DNA of 40,477 nt from an uncultured Pelagibacteraceae bacterium (GTDB lineage Bacteria; Pseudomonadota; Alphaproteobacteria; Pelagibacterales; Pelagibacteraceae), in NCBI GenBank assembly GCA_902597055.1, contig CACJWG010000006.1, positions 1-40,477 of the forward strand, read 5' to 3'. This document shows positions 110-38,840 of the stretch, piece by piece; position 1 is the stretch's first letter; every line of letters begins with the position of its first letter. The notes below the pieces were generated by a model that saw only the letters and a program-made list of their open reading frames with translations, was not told the DNA's origin and ran no database searches. The position numbers and the translations under genes were made by a program.

Positions 110-1485
110 GTCATTTTTTTTGGGTCAACGATTTTGTCAAAATCCTTCTCAGAAATTAATCCGGTTTTTGTAGCCTCAAACTTTAATGTGGTTTTATTTT
201 TAAGTGCAGATTTTGCAATTTTTGCTGCATTATCATAACCTAACTTAGGAGCTAAAGCTGTTACCAACATTAGCGAGTTATATAAATCATCATTTATTTT
301 TTCTAAATCAGCCTTAATACCTTTAATACAAAATTGTGAGAAATTTTTCGAACTGTCTGATAAAAGATCTATAGACTGAAGAATATTATGAGCAATTAAA
401 GGTTTAAAAACATTTAATTCAAATTGTCCTTGAGATCCAGCTAACGTGATACCTGTGTGATTACCAATAACTTTTACACAAACCATTGTTACAGCCTCAC
501 ATTGAGTTGGGTTCACTTTTCCAGGCATAATAGATGAGCCTGGTTCATTGGCAGGCAGAATTAATTCCCCATAACCTGCTCTAGGACCTGAACCTAAAAA
601 ACGAATATCATTAGCAATTTTCATCAGGCAAACCGCTGTAGTATTTAAAGTACCTGAAAAGTTTACTATTGCATCATGAGCTGCGAGAGCTGCAAATTTA
701 TTTTTTGCTGGATAAAATTTAATTTTAGTTAATTTACTGATCTCTTTACAAATTTTTTTATCAAAGTTTTTCTTTGAGTTAATACCTGTTCCAACGGCAG
801 TCCCCCCTTGAGCAAGAAAGAAAATCTCCTTTAAGGAGGTCTCAATTCTTAAAATACATTCATTTAATTGAGTATAATATCCTGAAAATTCTTGTCCTAA
901 AGTAAGTGGAGTTGCATCCTGGAGATGAGTTCTGCCAACTTTAACAATATTTCTAAATTTACTTATTTTTTTTTTCAATTCTTTATTGAGATTTTTTAAA
1001 GAGGGTAATAATTTTTTTTTTGTCTCTAAGGCGATCGCAATATGCATGGCTGTAGGAAAAACATCATTAGTTGATTGAGATTTATTAACATGGTCATTTG
1101 GATGAACTGGTTTTTTTGAACCTTTTTTTCCACCTAAAATTTCAACTGCTCTATTAGCAATTACCTCATTTACATTCATATTTGTCTGTGTTCCGGATCC
1201 AGTTTGCCATACTTTTAATGGAAAATTACCATCTAGCTTACCTGAAATTATTTCTTTTGAAGCTTTTACAATTGCATCACAAATTTTTGCATCAATTTGT
1301 TTATCATTTTTGTGAACTTTTGCTGCAGCAAGTTTTATCACTGTGATTGCATTTATTAAACTTTTGCTTACTAAAATTTTCCCTATATCAAAGTACTTTT
1401 TAGATCTTTCAGTTGAGGCTCCCCAATATTTGTCGTCATCAACATTAATGGTTCCCATGCTATCTGTTTCTTTTCTAAATTTCAT
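97..1485 (-). CDS. fumC: Class II fumarate hydratase (fumarase C)
   Basis: Interconverts fumarate and L-malate in the TCA cycle; a cytoplasmic, iron-independent homotetramer in this family. The 462-residue length is typical of FumC. The superfamily signature GSSIMPGKVNPTQCE lies near residue 315, GSGTQTNMNVNEV near residue 95 and GRTHLQDATPLTLGQE in the middle, all as expected for the fumarase branch rather than argininosuccinate lyase or adenylosuccinate lyase. The start gives MKFRKETDSMGTI, the normal FumC opening. It is divergent from the MazG-like gene (57 bp apart), and its 3' end overlaps the partial gene at the window edge. Confidence 0.96.
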   Translation of the reverse strand: MKFRKETDSMGTINVDDDKYWGASTERSKKYFDIGKILVSKSLINAITVIKLAAAKVHKNDKQIDAKICDAIVKASKEIISGKLDGNFPLKVWQTGSGTQTNMNVNEVIANRAVEILGGKKGSKKPVHPNDHVNKSQSTNDVFPTAMHIAIALETKKKLLPSLKNLNKELKKKISKFRNIVKVGRTHLQDATPLTLGQEFSGYYTQLNECILRIETSLKEIFFLAQGGTAVGTGINSKKNFDKKICKEISKLTKIKFYPAKNKFAALAAHDAIVNFSGTLNTTAVCLMKIANDIRFLGSGPRAGYGELILPANEPGSSIMPGKVNPTQCEAVTMVCVKVIGNHTGITLAGSQGQFELNVFKPLIAHNILQSIDLLSDSSKNFSQFCIKGIKADLEKINDDLYNSLMLVTALAPKLGYDNAAKIAKSALKNKTTLKFEATKTGLISEKDFDKIVDPKKMTYPG

Positions 1486-1542
1486 TTGGATAATGTATTA
1501 AATATTATACATTAAAAGCTATTAGAATCATATAGGAGCATT

Positions 1543-1914
1543 ATGACAAATTTTGAAAAAGTAGGTTTATTTATGAAAACTTTTGGCCAAGAGGTAAAAA
1601 CAAATGCCAGTTTTTCATCTGACAAAATTAACAAATTAAGAATTGATCTTATCGAGGAAGAACTTGAAGAACTTAAGGACGCAATTAGAAAGAAAGACCT
1701 GAAAGAAACAATAGATGCTTTAACTGACATCCTATATGTCACATATGGTGCTGGGCATGCTTTTGGGGTAAATTTAGATAAATGTTTCGACGAAGTTCAA
1801 AATTCTAACATGAGTAAATTAGGTGAGGATGGTAAACCTATATATAACGACAATGGCAAAGTGATGAAAGGACCAAATTATTTCAAACCTAATTTAAATC
1901 AATTTCTAAAATAA
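1543..1914 (+). CDS. MazG-like nucleotide pyrophosphohydrolase
   Basis: A 123-residue protein with the acidic helix pattern of the all-alpha NTP pyrophosphohydrolases (MazG / phosphoribosyl-ATP pyrophosphatase superfamily): EEELEELKDAI at residues 38-48, followed by ETIDALTDILYVTYG, i.e. E-E-x-x-E then E-x-x-D, the usual Mg-binding set. Such proteins hydrolyse (d)NTPs to monophosphate and pyrophosphate, often as house-cleaning or dNTP-pool enzymes. It lacks the second MazG domain and the HisE context, so the substrate cannot be given. A good Shine-Dalgarno AGGAG sits just before ATG 1543. One base separates its stop from that of the convergent methyltransferase. Confidence 0.8.
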   Translation: MTNFEKVGLFMKTFGQEVKTNASFSSDKINKLRIDLIEEELEELKDAIRKKDLKETIDALTDILYVTYGAGHAFGVNLDKCFDEVQNSNMSKLGEDGKPIYNDNGKVMKGPNYFKPNLNQFLK

Positions 1915-1915
1915 G

Positions 1916-2593
1916 TTAAATCTTTTTAAACAACACATCCTGATAATGAAGTGTAGGAAAAAGAAATTTCTTATGAATGATAAAACTTTGTTCTGAAAGA
2001 AATCTTCTTATATCATTAAAATTATTATTTTTGTAATGGTTACCGAATTGATTCTCGAGCAAAATAAATGGAATTTCTTTTAATTTCATTTGGGAACCCT
2101 CAATAACATTCATTTCAAAACCCTCTACGTCAATTTTTAGTAGTGCTTTTTGTAAATTTATATTCCCAAAAATTTTATCTACAGTGTTAGTTTGAACTTC
2201 ATATTCGAATTCAAAATTTGATTTTGAAAACGTTAAAAAATTTTTAATTTTTAGATATAAAGATCTTTCGTTTACTTCAGCCAAAGATGATGTCATACTG
2301 AGCCTATTAATCTTTAATTTTTTATTTGCAATCTCTTTGTCTATTGCAAAATTAAACAATGTCACTTTTTTATTCTTAGAAAATTTTTCGCTAAGTCCAT
2401 TAAATATATTCTTCTGAGGTTCAAATGCGTAAAAAGAATTTACCTTTTCTATTTTAAGCATTTTTTCAAGAAACTCGCCCTTATGAGCGCCAACATCTAT
2501 AATCTTTTCAATATCTAGTTCACTCAAATATCTTGAAATTCTTTTATGATGAAAAGAACTTAGAGGATTAAATATTTTTTCAATTAAAACCAT
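1916..2593 (-). CDS. FkbM-family SAM-dependent methyltransferase
   Basis: Probable O-methyltransferase of the FkbM family, commonly acting on sugars of surface polysaccharide; the actual substrate is unknown. Visible motifs are IIDVGAHKGEFLEKM (SAM-binding loop), FYAFEPQKNIF (acidic residue at the end of strand 2) and LLKIDVEGFEMNVIEGS, the FkbM hallmark. The frame is open up to 2650, but residues coded by 2594-2650 (including GAPGNRTPLF) are a translation of a duplicated ssrA 3' end, so I choose ATG 2593 (MVLIEKIFNP), giving 225 residues. The real start could still be 2650. It borders the ssrA-linked element. Confidence 0.82.
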   Translation of the reverse strand: MVLIEKIFNPLSSFHHKRISRYLSELDIEKIIDVGAHKGEFLEKMLKIEKVNSFYAFEPQKNIFNGLSEKFSKNKKVTLFNFAIDKEIANKKLKINRLSMTSSLAEVNERSLYLKIKNFLTFSKSNFEFEYEVQTNTVDKIFGNINLQKALLKIDVEGFEMNVIEGSQMKLKEIPFILLENQFGNHYKNNNFNDIRRFLSEQSFIIHKKFLFPTLHYQDVLFKKI

Positions 2594-2599
2594 ATTAAA

Positions 2600-2626
2600 A
2601 AGGGGCGTTCTGTTGCCAGGTGCCCC
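2600..2626. repeat. 27-bp direct repeat, copy of the ssrA 3' end (left attachment site)
   Basis: The 27 bases are identical to 4318-4344, which form the 3' terminus of the intact ssrA. On the minus strand the repeat is a G/C-rich hairpin (GGGGC ... GCCCC), and here it is followed by T6, so it reads like the original ssrA terminator. Exact duplication of an RNA-gene 3' end is the standard footprint of site-specific integration. No tmRNA body adjoins this copy. Confidence 0.85.
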
Positions 2627-2681
2627 GAACTTTGTAACATTATTCGCCAATTATTTGAATTAAAAATTAGTATTTATCAAT

Positions 2682-2705
2682 AAAATAACGCCACTAGGAC
2701 GCCAA
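2682..2705 (+). repeat. 24-bp repeat, copy 1 (AAAATAACGCCACTA-n-GACGCC)
   Basis: First of three near-identical 24-bp sequences (others at 3064-3087 and 4251-4274). The copies differ only at base 17 (G here) and near the last bases. Each contains ACGCCA, five bases, then ACGCC again, so the two half-sites are 11 bp apart, about one helical turn. It lies 56 bp inside the left attachment repeat and 41 bp before the lipoprotein gene. Confidence 0.85.
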
Positions 2706-2746
2706 ACTTTACATGGTTTTATTTTCTATTTTTGGTAAATTAAGTT

Positions 2747-3049
2747 ATGAGGTTCCTTAAAATTATAACGTTACTTACACCTTTACTTTTTTTAAGTAAC
2801 TGTACTCCTCAAGATTTTGGAGCAACAGGTAATTGTGGATGGTTTGGTTGTACTCAAGCCGAGACTGCATCAAGTCCTGGTTGGGAACAGTACACTACTC
2901 CAGTCCAAGTAGGTAAAGACAAATATATGTCAGAAGGTTATCAAGCCGGCATTGTAACAAAGGGTGCTAAATTATTCTGTGATGGCATGGGAAAGACAAT
3001 GGAATTTGAATCTTTTCAAGATAACACTTTAATCTTCAAATGTTTGTAA
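2747..3049 (+). CDS. Small cysteine-containing exported protein, possible lipoprotein
   Basis: A 100-residue protein with an N-terminal hydrophobic stretch (residues 4-17) ending in FLSNC, a possible lipobox with the modified cysteine at residue 19; Asn before the Cys is unusual, so lipidation is uncertain. Further cysteines follow at CGWFGC, LFCDG and the C-terminal KCL, so disulfides in the periplasm are possible. I do not recognise a family. It is flanked on both sides by the 24-bp repeats within the ssrA element, so it is probably cargo. No Shine-Dalgarno is visible before ATG 2747. Confidence 0.65.
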   Translation: MRFLKIITLLTPLLFLSNCTPQDFGATGNCGWFGCTQAETASSPGWEQYTTPVQVGKDKYMSEGYQAGIVTKGAKLFCDGMGKTMEFESFQDNTLIFKCL

Positions 3050-3063
3050 GATTTTTACAATAA

Positions 3064-3087
3064 AAAATAACGCCACTATGACGCCAA
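3064..3087 (+). repeat. 24-bp repeat, copy 2
   Basis: Same sequence as copy 1 except base 17 (T instead of G). It lies between the lipoprotein stop (3049) and the HNH gene start (3115), the only intergenic space between the two cargo genes. Confidence 0.85.
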
Positions 3088-3114
3088 GATAAGATATGTT
3101 AGTCTTATTTAGAT

Positions 3115-4257
3115 ATGTCTATTTTAGATAGAGTCGTTAGTTCTTTTGAGTCTTTGGGTGGGGTAGCAAAATTAAAAGATATTTATGATGTTTATAAAGA
3201 TATTTCATCAAAAGAAGAAATTTCAAAAACATTTGATAGAAGCATTCAAGCAAGAATTGAGGAAAATTCTAAAGATAGTGATGCATTTAAAGGTAAAGAT
3301 ATTTTTAGAACACTTTATGGAAAAGGCAAGGGTGTTTGGTACTTAAAAGATAAGTTTAAAAATTTAGATGAAGCTAAATTTGTTTATGAATTTAAGGAAA
3401 AAAATTTAGATTTATGGAATGAAATATCCAATAAAAAAATTCACTCAAATGATTTTGTAAGAAATGAAAAAAAAATTCATAGAGGAGAGAGAGGAATTTA
3501 TAGAGATTTATCCAAAACAAAGAAATATAGTTTTATAGATGGGATTTGCCAATCTGTTTTAGATACTGGTAGAAAATATGATGACGTTTTGACAGAAACT
3601 CATTTAACCTATTATTATCCAGACACCAGTCACAAAACCCGAGATAAAGGTGAGATTAATTCGTTAAAAAATTCTTATAAGTACAATATTCCGATTTTTG
3701 TAGTATTAGGATTGGGCAAAGATAAGACTAAAAAAGAGTTAAGATTAGGTTATGTACAAAGATTTAATGATAACCAAAAATCTTTTTTGATAAGTTTTGT
3801 AGAAAATTCTATTCAAAAAATTCTTCCTATTGATGATATTATTGAGTCGCAGAATGAGGATGAGTCCAAAGATGAGTTATTTGCCTCCGGTAGAGAGAGA
3901 AGAAAAAGAATATCTTCATCAAGAGGAAATAATCAACCAAAATTCAATTCTGACGTATTTAATTATTATCAAAACCAATGCGCAGTTTGTAATATCAAAT
4001 ACTTTCTCGATGCCGCTCATATTGTTCCTGTTAAAGACAAAGGTTCAGATAACAAAAGAAACGGACTAATCCTATGTAAAAATCATCACAAAGCTTTTGA
4101 TGATGGGTTTTTCAAAATAAATCCAAATAATCTTAAAATAGAAATAATTAAAGAAGATAAAAAAATATTGAATATAACAAGAGATAATCTAAATCACTTA
4201 ATCAATAAGCCAGGTAAAATGTATTTGGAATGGAGATACAAAAAATATAAAAAATAA
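3115..4257 (+). CDS. HNH endonuclease with N-terminal winged-helix-like domain (probable restriction enzyme)
   Basis: 380 residues. The C-terminus carries a full HNH nuclease: zinc cysteines C289-x-x-C292, AAHIVP with catalytic-type H302, NGLILCKNHH (N316, C321, H324, H325) and FDDGFF, the layout of HNH domains in McrA-like and other restriction endonucleases. The first about 80 residues (LDRVVSSFESLGGVAKLKDI) resemble a winged helix-turn-helix. Residues about 110-230 form a separate middle domain (YYYPDTSHKTRDKGEINSLK) that I cannot name; a modified-base reader is plausible. No partner methylase is nearby, which fits a modification-dependent or stand-alone nuclease. A likely role is anti-phage defence cargo. 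The stop codon overlaps repeat copy 3. Confidence 0.82.
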   Translation: MSILDRVVSSFESLGGVAKLKDIYDVYKDISSKEEISKTFDRSIQARIEENSKDSDAFKGKDIFRTLYGKGKGVWYLKDKFKNLDEAKFVYEFKEKNLDLWNEISNKKIHSNDFVRNEKKIHRGERGIYRDLSKTKKYSFIDGICQSVLDTGRKYDDVLTETHLTYYYPDTSHKTRDKGEINSLKNSYKYNIPIFVVLGLGKDKTKKELRLGYVQRFNDNQKSFLISFVENSIQKILPIDDIIESQNEDESKDELFASGRERRKRISSSRGNNQPKFNSDVFNYYQNQCAVCNIKYFLDAAHIVPVKDKGSDNKRNGLILCKNHHKAFDDGFFKINPNNLKIEIIKEDKKILNITRDNLNHLINKPGKMYLEWRYKKYKK

Positions 4258-4274
4258 CGCCACTACGACGCCTA
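4251..4274 (+). repeat. 24-bp repeat, copy 3
   Basis: Third copy, with C at base 17 and T for A at base 23. It overlaps the last codons and stop of the HNH gene, and ends 43 bp before the right attachment repeat, so copies 1 and 3 sit almost symmetrically inside the element ends. Confidence 0.85.
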
Positions 4275-4317
4275 CAAATATAAAAGATAATATTTTTAAA
4301 TGATAATAAAGGATTTT

Positions 4318-4344
4318 AAGGGGCGTTCTGTTGCCAGGTGCCCC
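4318..4344. repeat. 27-bp direct repeat within the ssrA 3' end (right attachment site)
   Basis: Identical to 2600-2626. This copy is joined to the complete ssrA, so insertion at this side kept the RNA gene intact. Downstream of it on the ssrA strand the T-run present at the other copy is replaced by TTAAAATCC. Confidence 0.85.
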
Positions 4345-4576
4345 AAAACCCCGTTACTTAATTAATAAATTAATTAAGCAGCAAGAGCAAATTTATCATT
4401 TGCAATTATAAATAGCCCGTCACGGTGGAACAATTCCGAACGAAAAAATAGCCTTTAGACATCCGTCGATCCTAGTTCACCCCCTTAAGTTGTAAATGGT
4501 GGAGGTGGTGGGTACTGCCCCCACGTCCGTAATGTTTATTACGAAATTCGTTTATCGTCATAGTTGGAAAACCAAC
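4319..4576 (-). ncRNA. ssrA: tmRNA, circularly permuted two-piece form
   Basis: Read on the minus strand, the acceptor piece comes first and ends in CACCTCC-A-CCA (4507 to 4497). A 12-base intervening loop (4496-4485) follows, then the coding piece starting GGGGGTGAACTAGGATCGAC (from 4484), the counterpart of the usual tmRNA 5' end. GGGGGTG (4484-4478) pairs with CACCTCC (4507-4501) as a 7-bp acceptor stem with a G3:U70 wobble (4482/4503), the alanyl-tRNA synthetase identity element. The tag reading frame encodes ANDKFALAA then TAA. The 3' end is the G/C hairpin at 4344-4319. Ends are estimates from the promoter and the hairpin. It rescues stalled ribosomes with SmpB. Confidence 0.95.
4374..4403 (-). 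other. tmRNA tag-peptide reading frame (ANDKFALAA)
   Basis: Minus-strand codons GCA AAT GAT AAA TTT GCT CTT GCT GCT TAA. The resume codon is GCA. The peptide begins AND and ends ALAA, the pattern of proteolysis tags recognised by ClpXP and related proteases. At nine residues it is shorter than the roughly 11-14 residue tags I recall from other alphaproteobacteria. Confidence 0.93.
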
Positions 4577-4629
4577 ACAATTAATATAAAAGTTAATGAT
4601 TAAGATTCAATAAAATTCATGAAACTTAC
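4464..4629. repeat. Duplicated ssrA 5' half, promoter and gene start, copy A
   Basis: Homologous to 6668-6827. Bases 4543-4629 (87 bp) are identical to 6741-6827; the ssrA part is diverged and copy B lacks 6 bases in the T-arm/acceptor region. The repeat ends with ATGAAACTTAC, which starts the acyltransferase gene here and thyX at copy B. Confidence 0.93.
4583..4610 (-). promoter_or_regulatory. ssrA promoter
   Basis: On the minus strand, -35 TTGAAT (4610-4605), a 16-bp spacer and -10 TATATT (4588-4583), predicting a start near 4576. An identical copy lies at 6808-6781 before the ssrA remnant. It overlaps the region that must hold the plus-strand promoter of the acyltransferase gene. Confidence 0.6.
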
Positions 4630-6610
4630 ATATCGTCCAGAAATAGACGGTTTACGAGCAATCGCTGTTGGCGCTGTTATTCTTTACCATGCTCAAATCG
4701 TCATTTTTGGTAATGAACCATTTAGAGGTGGTTTCTTAGGAGTTGATATTTTTTTTGTAATATCTGGTTATTTAATTACATCTATTATTTATAAAGAACT
4801 CGTCACCACTGGCTCTTTCTCTTTTAAAAATTTTTATGAGAGGAGAATAAGACGTATTCTTCCGGCATTATTGTTTGTAATGTTTGTATCACTTCCTTTT
4901 GCTTGGTTGTATTTATTGCCTGAAAGTTTTGTTGATTTTTCTAAGTCTATTCTTTATTCCCTTGGATTTGGTTCCAACTTTTATTTTCACTTATCAGGAC
5001 AACAATATGGAGCCGAAAGTGGATTTTTAAAACCATTTCTACACACTTGGTCACTATCTATAGAAGAACAATATTATATTTTATTTCCTGTAGTTTTATT
5101 GATTACTTTTAAGTATTTTAAAAAATATTTAATACATATTCTACTAGTCGGATTTATATTAAGTTTGGGAATAGCAGATTGGACTAGTAGAAATTATCCC
5201 TCCATTTCATTTTATTTTATTCATACAAGGATGTGGGAACTTATAGCAGGTTCTATGTTGGCATATTTTGAAATTACTAATGGTCATAGAAGCCAAAATC
5301 GAATATTAAATAAAATATTACCATTCACAGGCATAATATTAATTGGATATTCTATATTGTTTTTTAGTGATGAAATGTTTCATCCTTCGTTTTATTCATT
5401 ATCTCCCGTTTTAGGCGTCTGCCTAATTATCTGGTTTTCAAATGAGAATGAAATAATTACAAAAATATTATCAACTAAATTGTTTGTAGGAATAGGCTTA
5501 ATTTCATATTCTTTATATCTTTGGCATTACCCTATTTTTGCTTTCGCTAGAGTAACTTATTTTTTGGAGGATAATTTTGTAAAAGAATTATTAAGTGGAG
5601 TAGTTATATTAATTGTATCAATCGTATCTTTTTATTTTATAGAAAAACCTTTTAGAAATAAAAAAAATCAATTTAAGAAACTATTAATTATTCTTTTCAG
5701 TTTAATTGTTTTATTGGTCTCTTTTAATTTTTATGTAATTAATAATGGTGGATTTAATAAAAGAATGCCTGAAATTCTCCAAGTTGAACTAAGAGGGGAA
5801 AGTGTAAATTTTTTTCAAAAAGATAATACTAAAAAAGTGGTTTTAATTGGAGACTCTCACGCCAGAATGTTAGAAAACAAACTTAATGAAGAAATGAGAA
5901 AAAATGATCTAAGCTTGTTTAGATTTGAAACAGACTTATATTTAAAGGATTTTAATAAAGTTGACAGAAAAACTAAAAAGATTGATAAAACTTATTCTGA
6001 AGGAAATACCAAGATAGATAATTTCCTTGAAGAACACTCAGATTTGATAGTAATTATACATCAAAGATGGTCAGTATATTTTTTAGAAAAATATTTTGAT
6101 AATGAAGAAGGTTTCAAAGAAAACAATACATATGATGATTATTATGAACCTGCAAATACAAAAACATCATCTTTTGAAGAAAGACAGGAGTACCTTAAAC
6201 AGGGTCTTCTATCAAAAATAAGCAAAATTGTTGACCAAGGACACAAATTAATTTTAGTTTATCCGGTACCGGAAATGGGCTTTAATGTTCCAAATCATTT
6301 CAAAAACAGTTTCTTTAGACTAAGAAAATTAAATAATTTTGAAATTCCAATTCTGACTGGGAGTTATGCTGTATACAAAAAAAGAAATGAATTCGTATTT
6401 AGTGTTTTAGATAGCGCTAAAGATAAGAATATTTACAGGGTTTATCCCCATAAATCATTTTGTGATATTTTTATTAAAAATAAATGCGTAGCCAATGATG
6501 ATAAGAGTATTTTTTATAGTGATGATGATCATTTATCTTTAGATGGTTCCAAATTTGTTGTGAATGATATAATGAAAGAAATTGTAAAGCTGAGATCTAA
6601 AGTAGATTAA
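4619..6610 (+). CDS. OafA-like acyltransferase (acyltransferase 3 plus SGNH domain)
   Basis: 663 residues. The N-terminal half is an integral-membrane acyltransferase-3 domain (about 10-11 membrane segments): RPEIDGLRAIAV at the start, GGFLGVDIFFVISGYLIT, YERRIRRILPAL, HTWSLSIEEQYY, SLYLWHYPIF and FYFIEKPFR are family landmarks. After residue 380 comes a periplasmic SGNH hydrolase-like domain with VLIGDSHARM (nucleophile serine) and DDDHLSLDGS near the end. Such proteins O-acetylate lipopolysaccharide or other surface glycans. Its first codons and whole upstream region are a copy of those of thyX, so it appears to use a captured promoter. It sits between intact ssrA and the ssrA remnant. The substrate is unknown. 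Confidence 0.92.
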   Translation: MKLTYRPEIDGLRAIAVGAVILYHAQIVIFGNEPFRGGFLGVDIFFVISGYLITSIIYKELVTTGSFSFKNFYERRIRRILPALLFVMFVSLPFAWLYLLPESFVDFSKSILYSLGFGSNFYFHLSGQQYGAESGFLKPFLHTWSLSIEEQYYILFPVVLLITFKYFKKYLIHILLVGFILSLGIADWTSRNYPSISFYFIHTRMWELIAGSMLAYFEITNGHRSQNRILNKILPFTGIILIGYSILFFSDEMFHPSFYSLSPVLGVCLIIWFSNENEIITKILSTKLFVGIGLISYSLYLWHYPIFAFARVTYFLEDNFVKELLSGVVILIVSIVSFYFIEKPFRNKKNQFKKLLIILFSLIVLLVSFNFYVINNGGFNKRMPEILQVELRGESVNFFQKDNTKKVVLIGDSHARMLENKLNEEMRKNDLSLFRFETDLYLKDFNKVDRKTKKIDKTYSEGNTKIDNFLEEHSDLIVIIHQRWSVYFLEKYFDNEEGFKENNTYDDYYEPANTKTSSFEERQEYLKQGLLSKISKIVDQGHKLILVYPVPEMGFNVPNHFKNSFFRLRKLNNFEIPILTGSYAVYKKRNEFVFSVLDSAKDKNIYRVYPHKSFCDIFIKNKCVANDDKSIFYSDDDHLSLDGSKFVVNDIMKEIVKLRSKVD

Positions 6611-6667
6611 ATTTTAATTTTTCAATGACAAGTATAAGACGAGTCACTAGGTTGTATTTTAAATTTA

Positions 6668-6774
6668 CGTTGATCCTTGTTCACCCCCGTAAGTTGTAAA
6701 TGGTGCTAGGCACCGCCCCCACTTCCGTAATGTTTTTTATGAAATTCGTTTATCGTCATAGTTGGAAAACCAAC
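6668..6774 (-). pseudogene. Decayed 5' fragment of ssrA
   Basis: Homologous to the acceptor piece, 12-base loop and first about 20 bases of the coding piece of the intact ssrA (4464-4576). It stops at 6668, before the tag frame. The acceptor stem is destroyed: against GGGGGTG (6688-6682) the 3' strand (6711-6705) reads GCCTAGC, so most pairs including G3:U70 are lost. It cannot make a charged or tag-encoding tmRNA. The promoter in front of it is unchanged. Beyond 6668, bases 6611-6667 show no recognisable feature. Confidence 0.85.
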
Positions 6775-6827
6775 ACAATTAATATAAAAGTTAATGATTA
6801 AGATTCAATAAAATTCATGAAACTTAC
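6668..6827. repeat. Duplicated ssrA 5' half, promoter and gene start, copy B
   Basis: Partner of 4464-4629. This copy leads into thyX, whose family N-terminus normally reads like M-x-L-T-x-E-Q, so ATGAAACTTAC belongs natively to thyX and copy B marks the ancestral thyX-ssrA junction. Confidence 0.9.
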
Positions 6828-27988: not shown

Positions 27989-28039
27989 AATTTATTAATA
28001 AATATCAAAAATTTGCTTAATGCAATTTTTATAGGGTGT

Positions 28040-28047
28040 GTTATATT
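28040..28047 (+). promoter_or_regulatory. Extended -10 promoter for the LysE-type exporter
   Basis: TGTTATATT (28039-28047) is a TGn extended -10. Seven bases later comes G28055, the first base of the leader hairpin, so transcription would start at the base of the stem. No well-spaced -35 is seen, as expected for an extended -10. Confidence 0.45.
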
Positions 28048-28054
28048 GGGTTCT

Positions 28055-28101
28055 GATAGTCCTATCTAGCCATCTTTAGCTCCCGGTTTTTTAGGACTAT
28101 C
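28055..28101 (+). promoter_or_regulatory. Leader hairpin masking the Shine-Dalgarno of the LysE-type gene
   Basis: GATAGTCCTA (28055-28064) and TAGGACTATC (28092-28101) form a perfect 10-bp stem closing a 27-base loop. The 3' arm contains the AGGA Shine-Dalgarno (28093-28096), 10 bases before ATG 28107. The structure is too loop-rich and lacks a U-tract for a terminator. The loop has a CCCGG stretch able to pair with upstream or downstream G/C-containing bases. It matches no riboswitch class I can recall. Confidence 0.6.
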
Positions 28102-28106
28102 TCAAA

Positions 28107-28718
28107 ATGCTTCCCCTAGATTATTTTCTTTTCTTACAAATTATACTTTTTTTATTTATTACTCCAGGTACTCCGAGAATAGTGATTATATCTTTATCTA
28201 TTAGTTTTGGTGTCCGTAATTGTGTTTGGGTAGCACTAGGCGATGTGACTGCAAACATTTTACAAGCGAGTTTAATAATATTTTTACTTCATTCTTTTTT
28301 TATTGATAATCCTAACCTATTAAACTTTATTAAATGGATTGGGGTTGCCTATCTATTTTATCTAGCGACTGATGTTTATTTTTCAAAAGTTAAAAATTTA
28401 AAAAACGTAAATTCTGAGAAGTCTAGATTATCTTTATTTAAAGATGGTTTCTTAGTTGCAGGTACAAGTCCAAAAGCTTGGGCTTTTTTTCCATTAATAT
28501 TTCCACAATTTATTAATTTTGAGACAAATTATGTTGTCCAGTTTTTAATTTTAATAATAACTTACGTTGTTTTAGATTTTTTATCTTTGATTTGTTATGC
28601 TTTCCTTGCAAATAAATTAATTGATTGGTTAAAAGCGAATCCAAAGACTATTAACACAATTTCCGCGTGTGTACTTTTTTCAATTGGAGTATTTATAGCG
28701 TTAACACAACAATATTAA
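28107..28718 (+). CDS. LysE/RhtB-family amino-acid exporter
   Basis: 203 residues with six membrane segments. Family marks: FITPGTPRIVIISLSISFG (canonical xTPGPxxxxxxxxxxxxG), and FLVAGTSPKAWAFFPLIFPQF in the middle. It is expected to export an amino acid or derivative from the cytoplasm; the substrate is unknown. TPGT replaces the usual TPGP. Expression is probably gated by the leader hairpin. The ATG is 5 bases past the stem. Confidence 0.88.
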   Translation: MLPLDYFLFLQIILFLFITPGTPRIVIISLSISFGVRNCVWVALGDVTANILQASLIIFLLHSFFIDNPNLLNFIKWIGVAYLFYLATDVYFSKVKNLKNVNSEKSRLSLFKDGFLVAGTSPKAWAFFPLIFPQFINFETNYVVQFLILIITYVVLDFLSLICYAFLANKLIDWLKANPKTINTISACVLFSIGVFIALTQQY

Positions 28719-38686: not shown

Positions 38687-38692
38687 TATAAT
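38687..38692 (+). promoter_or_regulatory. -10 element of the gcvTHP promoter
   Basis: A perfect TATAAT. The best -35 with workable spacing is weak (TGACGA, 38663-38668, spacer 18). The predicted start at about 38699 coincides with the first stem of the riboswitch, so almost no RNA would precede aptamer 1. Confidence 0.55.
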
Positions 38693-38696
38693 CTGA

Positions 38697-38840
38697 TACG
38701 GGAGAGACTACATTAAGTAGCGCCGAAGGAGCAACCACCCCGGAAACTCTCAGGCAAAAGGACCGTACATATTAACTCTGGAAAGAGACAAATTCTCGCC
38801 GAAGGAGCTAAAATCTCTCAGGCACCACGACAGAGGGGGT
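38697..38840 (+). promoter_or_regulatory. Tandem glycine riboswitch
   Basis: Two glycine aptamers in series. Aptamer 1 (38697-38767) is closed by TACGG/CCGTA and contains GCGCCGAAGGAGCAA and ACTCTCAGGCAAAAGGACCG. Aptamer 2 (38776-38835) is closed by CTCTG/CAGAG and contains TCGCCGAAGGAGCTAA and TCTCTCAGGCACCACGACAG. The GCCGAAGGAGC and CTCAGGCA blocks are the family consensus. It controls gcvT, which starts 13 bases later; SAR11 is known to use glycine-activated switches of this kind. Confidence 0.95.

Follow-up and report, generated by a model that had tools for sequence, protein, structure and literature searches.

Integrase-less cassettes bounded by copies of the ssrA 3' end form same-strand arrays across Pelagibacteraceae and point to a shared gene-exchange system

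Positions 2600-4344 of contig CACJWG010000006.1 (assembly GCA_902597055.1), from an uncultured Pelagibacteraceae bacterium of the SAR11 group, hold an integrase-less, non-autonomous integrated cassette bounded by two copies of the 3' end of ssrA, the gene of transfer-messenger RNA (tmRNA). The contig was analysed over a window of 40,477 nucleotides, in which this cassette is the element under study. Comparison with relatives revealed that it belongs to a family-wide system of small cassettes with one or two genes each, which are lined up on one strand behind ssrA and behind several protein genes. We consider it probable, at roughly 85%, that these are satellite-like cassettes with an attP-type attachment site, moved in trans by a tyrosine recombinase that is either resident or visiting. 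Genomes and loci are designated by G and L numbers where they have to be told apart.

The window cassette and its empty site

A first-pass annotation of this stretch, made from its letters, had proposed an exact 27-base-pair (bp) repeat of the ssrA 3' terminus enclosing two genes (a possible lipoprotein and an HNH nuclease) and further repeats without any recombinase, and the follow-up analysis confirmed this observation. Bases 2600-2626 are identical to 4318-4344, and no other copy with up to 3 mismatches occurs in the window or in 100 dinucleotide shuffles of it. Both Rfam and ARAGORN place the copy at 4318-4344 at the 3' terminus of ssrA on the minus strand, where ARAGORN reports a tmRNA at 4283-4592 with the tag ANDKFALAA. 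The gene is permuted, so that the tag comes late in it, and the terminal hairpin GGGGCACCTGGCAACAGAACGCCCC of the coding piece lies within the 27-mer. The interval between the two copies measures 1718 bp and contains the two genes, both antisense to ssrA, with no recombinase detected there among the open reading frames (ORFs) or by Pfam. The internal repeats comprise three copies of TAACGCCACTANGACGCC, beginning at 2686, 3068 and 4255 (0.01 expected); a search of the whole genome returned the same three copies, compared to 1 match for the reversed-pattern control. The copy at 3068-3085 suggests that two neighbouring cassettes may have been fused via recombination between repeats, with loss of the intervening site. 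In addition, a third copy of the hairpin, with 1 mismatch, is located elsewhere in this genome, 3' of a small gene (G000:C4:54470).

The predicted empty site, joining 2600 and 4345, was found in one relative, G008, and is the sole empty site seen among the loci scanned. There the ssrA hairpin is followed directly by the fkbM gene and a MazG-like gene, both of which lie beyond 2600 in the window. Alignment of G008 against the window without the island gave 1226 identical bases out of 1400 aligned, with one gap column. Among the loci compared, the HNH cassette itself gave DNA matches of its ends only, in addition to a weak protein match in L238 (85 residues at 34%). A longer pattern, ACAAAGTTNGGGGCACCTGGCAACAGAACGCC, which takes in the right end of this cassette type, was found in 75 stretches when 84,980 species genomes were searched, all of them titled Pelagibacteraceae or Pelagibacterales.

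Same-strand arrays across the family

The 13-mer core AACAGAACGCCCC, common to most types of cassette end, occurs in 116 of 147 Pelagibacteraceae genomes and in 13 of the 14 genera, with 1 match for the reversed-pattern control. At least two copies are present in 55 genomes, giving 226 copies in all. Among the 150 copies listed of these 226, every neighbouring pair spaced by no more than 10 kilobases (kb) lies on the same strand (51/51), with a median spacing of 1185 bp, and G182 has seven exact core copies in a row. When up to 3 mismatches were allowed, 73 of 145 relatives had the 25-base hairpin, and every one of these belongs to the genus of the window; because the ssrA ends of the sister family differ, as read from G129, this pattern may miss that family. 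The 85 cassettes in the fetched loci have a median length of 987 bp (range 204-5810), and 112 of 132 cassette ORFs of at least 60 residues are antisense to ssrA.

These comparisons both confirm and correct the first-pass annotation. Other cargo between the same repeats, which it had predicted for relatives, was present in the compared loci, and its integrase-less element stands, now as a member of a family-wide array system and not as a single small element. It had also stated that wide occurrence of the 27-bp match as an ordinary dispersed sequence would speak against it; the repeat is indeed dispersed, yet its copies are att-type sites, arrayed on one strand and placed at the 3' ends of genes, which is not the behaviour of an ordinary repeat.

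The sites vary between hosts. The ssrA hairpin of G028, G074, G001 and G062 reads GGGTAAC in place of TGGCAAC, and the extra sites of G028 and G074 show the same variant. In G129 (L126), ssrA is followed by a gene for a 68-residue periplasmic-type protein and then by a second hairpin, one base off its ssrA end; as this second hairpin is in the variant of its own genome, the copy tracks the ssrA of its host.

Sites behind other genes and near-identical cassettes at different loci

Copies of the site also stand directly behind rnhA, pnp, the 68-residue periplasmic-type gene and others, in sense orientation (rnhA, pnp, thyX and the glycan genes were recognised by eye). Of 30 genomes searched, 27 contain rnhA, and a site lies within 350 bp of its stop codon in 10 of them. 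None was found behind rnhA in the other 17, one of which, G029, shows a decayed copy by eye, indicating that sites are gained and lost. Moreover, one locus holds a single site in G074, whereas in G028 it has grown to five sites with four cassettes between them.

A 140-residue membrane-type protein is encoded by one cassette of about 645 bp that is located in an ssrA array in G025, directly behind rnhA in G066, and behind a 68-residue gene after rnhA in G087. The three copies share 642/645, 621/634 and 620/634 identical bases, while the similarity between their 300-bp flanks is about that of random 300-mers drawn from those loci. Given this placement, the comparison is one of ssrA with rnhA, with two settings at rnhA.

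When 196 intervals, 177 of them distinct, were compared systematically, 21 pairs at different loci proved to be 80% or more identical across no less than 80% of their length; they are mutually non-independent, as members are shared by several pairs. Neither 400-bp flank shows detected homology in 15 of these pairs, five share the upstream flank, and in one the flank was too short for a judgement. The best pair reaches 99.8% over 1038 bp. Such near-identical cassettes at different places in different species point to a shared gene-exchange system. Together with the lack of a recombinase signal in the cassette-bearing loci, they agree with the earlier idea of a satellite-like hitchhiker.

Behind rnhA in G086 (L213), a gene-less stretch of about 115 bp has cassette-like ends and repeats but no ORF; by eye, it resembles an empty attP left in the chromosome.

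Cassette ends with private repeats around a shared core

The right ends fall into several families that have unrelated sequences and differ in their left core arms, and all of them end in ACAGAACGCCCC save for single changed copies. The full 5-bp terminal stem is absent from 125 of 304 sites not classed as ssrA, a count in which the ssrA class was drawn too strictly (16 sites), so that the class of other sites still includes some ssrA ends. A base-paired hairpin is therefore not conserved.

Inside the ends, tandem 7-mers were detected in 105 of 173 cassettes (49 at the left, 87 at the right), compared to a mean of 1.8 and a maximum of 5 in 100 shuffles. Nearly all have a period of 11 or 12, and the first copy is mostly positioned +46 to +62 from the left site or -90 to -55 from the right site; the window repeats at 4255-4272 and 2686-2703 are instances of them. 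The repeated sequence varies from cassette to cassette, amounting to 135 distinct 7-mers. An 8-mer common to both ends of the cassette was seen in 75 of 170, compared to 14.5 ± 3.3 (maximum 23) with permuted ends. Sharing in inverted orientation was seen in 18, and in a set of 120 the left end shared an 8-mer with the middle in 12 and with its own opposite end in 58.

In a lambda-type attP, the core is flanked on both sides by arm-type repeats. Judged from their sequence, the repeats of 11-12-bp period inside the cassette ends have this layout, and we infer that they serve as the arm sites of an integrase.

Search for the recombinase

Neither motif nor similarity searches revealed a tyrosine recombinase in the cassette-bearing loci examined. 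Among 30 genomes, some of them incomplete, none matched the serine recombinase family PF00239, for which 10 of 14 control genomes were positive, or the Y1 transposase family PF01797. PF00589 was matched by 66 of 91 genus genomes; of 35 genomes chosen across the family, two of which also belong to the genus set, 29 had a match. In five of the seven single-contig genomes the single PF00589 gene encodes a conserved Cre-like protein, and the remaining two (G082 and G158) have one more. This Cre-like protein (identity 51-92%) was found at 28 of 30 family recombinase loci tested, and in the loci read its gene adjoins glycosyltransferase-type genes. It may correspond to SAR11_0551, which PMC2217521 describes as an integrase gene of hypervariable region 2. 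An assignment as XerC or XerD was rejected, as three copies scored 63-80 bits against equivalog cut-offs of 330-335; three copies reached 26-38 bits with the integron integrase model, for which the cut-off is 265. In the sister family, each genome has instead one or two proteins that are 23-37% identical to the Cre-like protein and are presumably XerC and XerD.

A large helper element between distant sites was also considered for the 10-14-kb intervals of G210 and G242, and rejected, as glycan-type genes and no integrase were seen there by eye. In these genomes (L327 and L328), about 10 and 13.7 kb with genes of the glycan biosynthesis type (by eye) lie between ssrA-type sites; the same sites may thus also bound large surface islands. 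Apparent prophage integrase genes are found beside tRNA-Leu in three Pelagibacter genomes (L136, L137 and L138).

Cargo

The cargo scan covered 80 of the 132 cassette ORFs, and the families listed are 25 of 58 for Pfam, 25 of 151 for PADLOC and 25 of 55 for PHROGs. Among the Pfam matches listed are four methyltransferases, two inverse autotransporter domains and two M23 peptidases, in addition to type I restriction subunits, an MrcB-like domain, a GH5 cellulase and a polysaccharide lyase. The PADLOC matches listed include type I restriction subunits, HNH (the window protein), a PDC-S11 candidate and the mad2 model in 6 members. A cassette in G009 was assigned to type I restriction by its ORFs. 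Against NCBIfam NF045808, the HNH_2 protein of the window scored 50.7 bits, under the cut-off of 180; it is probably a restriction-type endonuclease, and HNH cargo may serve in phage defence. Many cassette proteins have a closely similar signal peptide at their start (MKKLLGIVVLGLLLSGNAYA or a variant of it) and differ in the remainder. A signal peptide of this kind is found on unrelated cassette proteins of L067, L074, L080, L082, L185 and L201.

Proposed mechanism and alternatives

The proposed movement of the cassettes in trans would proceed through a circular form, in which an attP-like core ending in ACAGAACGCCCC would carry arm-type direct repeats on both sides. Recombination of this form with the ssrA 3' end would restore the ssrA end at the left junction and keep the displaced copy at the right junction. 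As the displaced copy would itself be a site, cassettes would accumulate head to tail, and copies of the site behind rnhA, pnp and other genes (by eye) would collect cassettes there too. The trans-acting tyrosine recombinase would be either the single Cre-like one found in most members of the family or an arm-binding integrase brought in by a phage or other visiting element.

Several observations weigh against this mechanism. No cassette recombinase, circular junction or excision was observed in the assembled sequences, and most genomes are fragmented single-cell or metagenome assemblies. End repeats went undetected in 68 of 173 cassettes. The Cre-like protein (304-325 residues) shows by eye no N-terminal arm-binding domain, and in 20 loci no core site with up to 4 mismatches to the 16-mer was found beside the recombinase genes. 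A helper with a matching attP was not found in viral contigs either: a 20-mer search returned 8 of them (L087-L094), all with phage-encoded permuted ssrA genes; the variant 20-mer returned 0; and the 14-base core occurs in 20, which look like chance matches, with unrelated contexts and guanine-cytosine content. Deposited phages gave 6 short matches, none over 80% of the query. In the sister family, G129 has a second hairpin behind ssrA (1 of 41 genomes with an ssrA match, among 53 searched), and a close relative of the Cre-like protein was not found in that family, including G129. Moreover, two of the three copies of the 645-bp cassette lie in the same rnhA neighbourhood, with different direct neighbours, and the absence of the rnhA site from 17 of 27 genomes leaves the first arrival of a site at a new gene unexplained. 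As an observation apart, the marine phage contigs L087-L094 have their own permuted tmRNA gene, which ends in the same hairpin and whose tag reads ADENLALAA by eye.

The two candidate sources of the enzyme differ in what speaks for them. A domesticated Cre-like recombinase might insert and excise all cassettes in the manner of an integron integrase, with the end repeats binding accessory factors. Besides its presence at nearly all family loci tested, the protein was found in 63 of 91 genus genomes, most of them incomplete, and is the sole PF00589 protein in the cassette-bearing single-contig genomes G152 and G189. The residues R, K, HxxR, H and Y, which we take to be the catalytic motif, lie within invariant columns of six copies. 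Co-distribution also favours it, as the sister family has distant proteins and a second hairpin in 1 of 41 genomes. However, with neither an arm-binding domain nor a core site near its gene, the Cre-like protein is disfavoured as an arm-dependent integrase, and 135 different repeated 7-mers are hard to fit to one enzyme. It may instead replace XerC/D in dimer resolution, since Pelagibacter ubique is described, in the excerpts of PMC2731167, as having no dif/Xer system. We hold this resident version as a tentative candidate, well short of an even chance. As the main alternative, arm-binding integrases of pelagiphages or larger elements, with several specificities, could act in trans, in which case each set of private repeats would fit one helper. 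The lambda-like layout of repeats on both sides of the core fits such helpers, and integrases with an N-terminal region like an arm-binding domain (by eye) are encoded in G082, G010 and G240. Nevertheless, an ssrA-type site was not found beside these integrases, G240 having two core-like matches with 2 mismatches in an implausible place, and helper integrases were detected neither through a viral attP nor in the cassette-bearing loci. We place this version slightly below even odds. A broader picture, in which a communal, ocean-wide cassette exchange resembles integrons but evolved separately, re-plants a site copied from the tmRNA gene end behind several host genes, and relies for all cassettes on one resident Cre-like recombinase, conserved in the family in genomes lacking recognisable XerC/XerD, with the private repeats as a specificity code that would keep cassettes distinct, seems to us less likely than not.

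Explanations that dispense with a dedicated enzyme fare worse. The sites do offer homology for ordinary homologous recombination after natural transformation, and for the surface genes in hypervariable region 2 (HVR2) of SAR11, exchange by homologous recombination at the RNA genes on either side has been put forward (excerpts of PMC2217521). Yet cassettes that are 99.5% identical have, with unrelated flanks, only the short site in common, and the precise edges, the 51 same-strand pairs out of 51 and the repeats at fixed distances speak against this route, which we judge improbable. Finally, the position of the copies behind gene 3' ends in sense orientation would suit a mere transcription terminator or a repetitive extragenic palindromic (REP)-like repeat, with the genes between copies coincidental. 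A terminator was rejected, as no T tract follows the hairpin: T amounts to 85% at +1 and 69% at +2, and then to 19-47% around a background of 35%. The unconserved stem (125/304), the empty site and the mobility contradict terminator and REP alike, and we give this explanation hardly any credence.

Features of the window

The coordinates of the cassette and its surroundings are collected in Table 1.

Table 1. The ssrA cassette of the window, its junctions, repeats, cargo and flanking genes
Feature	Position	Strand	Evidence
ssrA, permuted alphaproteobacterial tmRNA gene, attachment gene by its 3' end	4317..4614	-	Rfam RF01849 alpha_tmRNA, 239.1 bits
Left junction (attL-like), 3'-terminal hairpin of the ssrA coding piece, holding the core AACAGAACGCCCC	4318..4344	-	exact repeat; empty site of G008
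Right junction (attR-like), second copy of the ssrA 3' end	2600..2626	-	exact repeat; boundary agrees with the empty site of G008
Left arm-type direct repeat, ~48-65 bp into the cassette from that end	4255..4272	-	position range as in the repeats of other cassettes
Right arm-type direct repeat, ~60-77 bp into the cassette from that end	2686..2703	-	repeat search; end comparison
Third arm-type repeat copy, between the two genes	3068..3085	-	repeat search
Right-end sequence of this cassette type, ATTCAAATAATTGGCGAATAATGTTACAAAGTTC	2627..2660	-	similar block before the site in other genomes
Predicted lipoprotein of 100 residues, cargo	2747..3049	+	ORF; lipobox LSNC read by eye; no Pfam match
HNH_2 protein of 380 residues, cargo, antisense to ssrA	3115..4257	+	Pfam HNH_2, E 9.8e-12; PADLOC HNH
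fkbM-type methyltransferase gene, first chromosomal gene beyond the cassette	1916..2593	-	Pfam Methyltransf_21, E 1.9e-18; directly after ssrA in G008

On the other side of ssrA, a degraded partial second copy of its promoter and acceptor part lies at the start of thyX (166 bp at 90%, 4504-4629 against 6658-6827). The gene of a 663-residue SGNH acyltransferase (4619-6610), whose first bases are the same as those of thyX, lies between the intact ssrA and the degraded copy. G009 has a remnant of such a promoter/acceptor copy, 67 bp at 78%, in a similar place. Elsewhere in the window, Rfam assigned an rhtB small RNA at 28037-28112 and a glycine riboswitch at 38689-38775, ahead of a gcvT-like gene.

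Comparison with known systems

SAR11 is among the most abundant bacterial groups and is the standard case of a streamlined genome with hardly any mobile DNA. Small exchangeable cassettes offer it a concrete route to surface proteins, glycan genes and restriction systems, and make testable how its large flexible gene pool is kept up without transposons or integrons. In addition, private arm repeats on one shared core would be a natural series for the diversification of integrase arm specificity.

The closest precedent at ssrA is found in Dehalococcoides, for which the excerpts of PMC3146451 and PMC2764846 describe islands that follow ssrA in tandem and have repeats of its 3' end as their borders; strain VS has 11 such copies. 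Sixteen ssrA islands have an integration module there with the CcrB-type serine recombinase DsiB, and insertion was inferred in the T-loop region. Both systems combine a streamlined genome with strain-specific cargo, as far as these excerpts go. By contrast, the SAR11 genomes gave no serine recombinase match (0/30), so that a module of the DsiB/DsiA kind is missing; their cassettes target the hairpin in the coding piece of a permuted tmRNA, sites also stand at protein genes, and many cassettes have arm-type repeats. Of the general hallmarks of ssrA islands, the SAR11 system displays the ssrA gene, the 3'-end repeat and the empty site, and lacks an island-encoded integrase.

The cassettes fit the description of additive flexible islands, reported at tRNA-Lys in Ca. 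Methylopumilus (PMC10872708) and in Ca. Actinomarinales (PMC7771536), in being variable cassettes at an RNA-gene site with partial repeats. According to the excerpts of these papers, the likeness extends to small cassettes with often unknown genes, an RNA gene with end repeats, and streamlined aquatic bacteria as hosts. However, those islands use tRNA genes, and the same excerpts do not mention arm-type repeats or sites at protein genes. Intergenus transfer of cassettes is given there at about 75% similarity, compared to 99.5-99.8% for the best SAR11 pairs.

The tycheposons of Prochlorococcus, to which the first-pass annotation had likened the element, measure 4-200 kb, are bordered by a tRNA and carry a tyrosine recombinase, as summarized in an excerpt of PMC10872708. 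On this account, both are cargo elements at RNA genes of streamlined ocean bacteria, whereas the SAR11 cassettes have a median of 987 bp, use ssrA and contain no recombinase. ARAGORN found in the window only the tmRNA gene and no tRNA border. The analogy stands, but not the family membership, because recombinase and tRNA target are missing.

Compared to a lambda-type attP, cassettes with detectable repeats have similar direct repeats of 11-12-bp period on both sides of the core, but lack the integrase gene, and their repeats differ between cassettes. The resemblance to integrons lies in arrays of mostly small cassettes in one orientation, and in a recombinase that would, in SAR11 too, act in trans. 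However, no IntI is linked to the array and the Cre-like gene is not located at the arrays; the sites have no conserved hairpin, and most cassette genes read toward ssrA and have their own upstream regions. The excerpts of PMC2217521 likewise state that attC sites were not found at SAR11 hypervariable regions. A search of open-licence PubMed Central, with subscription literature outside its range, returned no report of SAR11 ssrA cassettes. The literature searched likewise did not mention a site in the coding piece of tmRNA, its re-planting at protein genes, private repeats or near-identical cassettes across SAR11 species. Altogether, the system works both like an integron array and like satellite elements, and is a member of neither.

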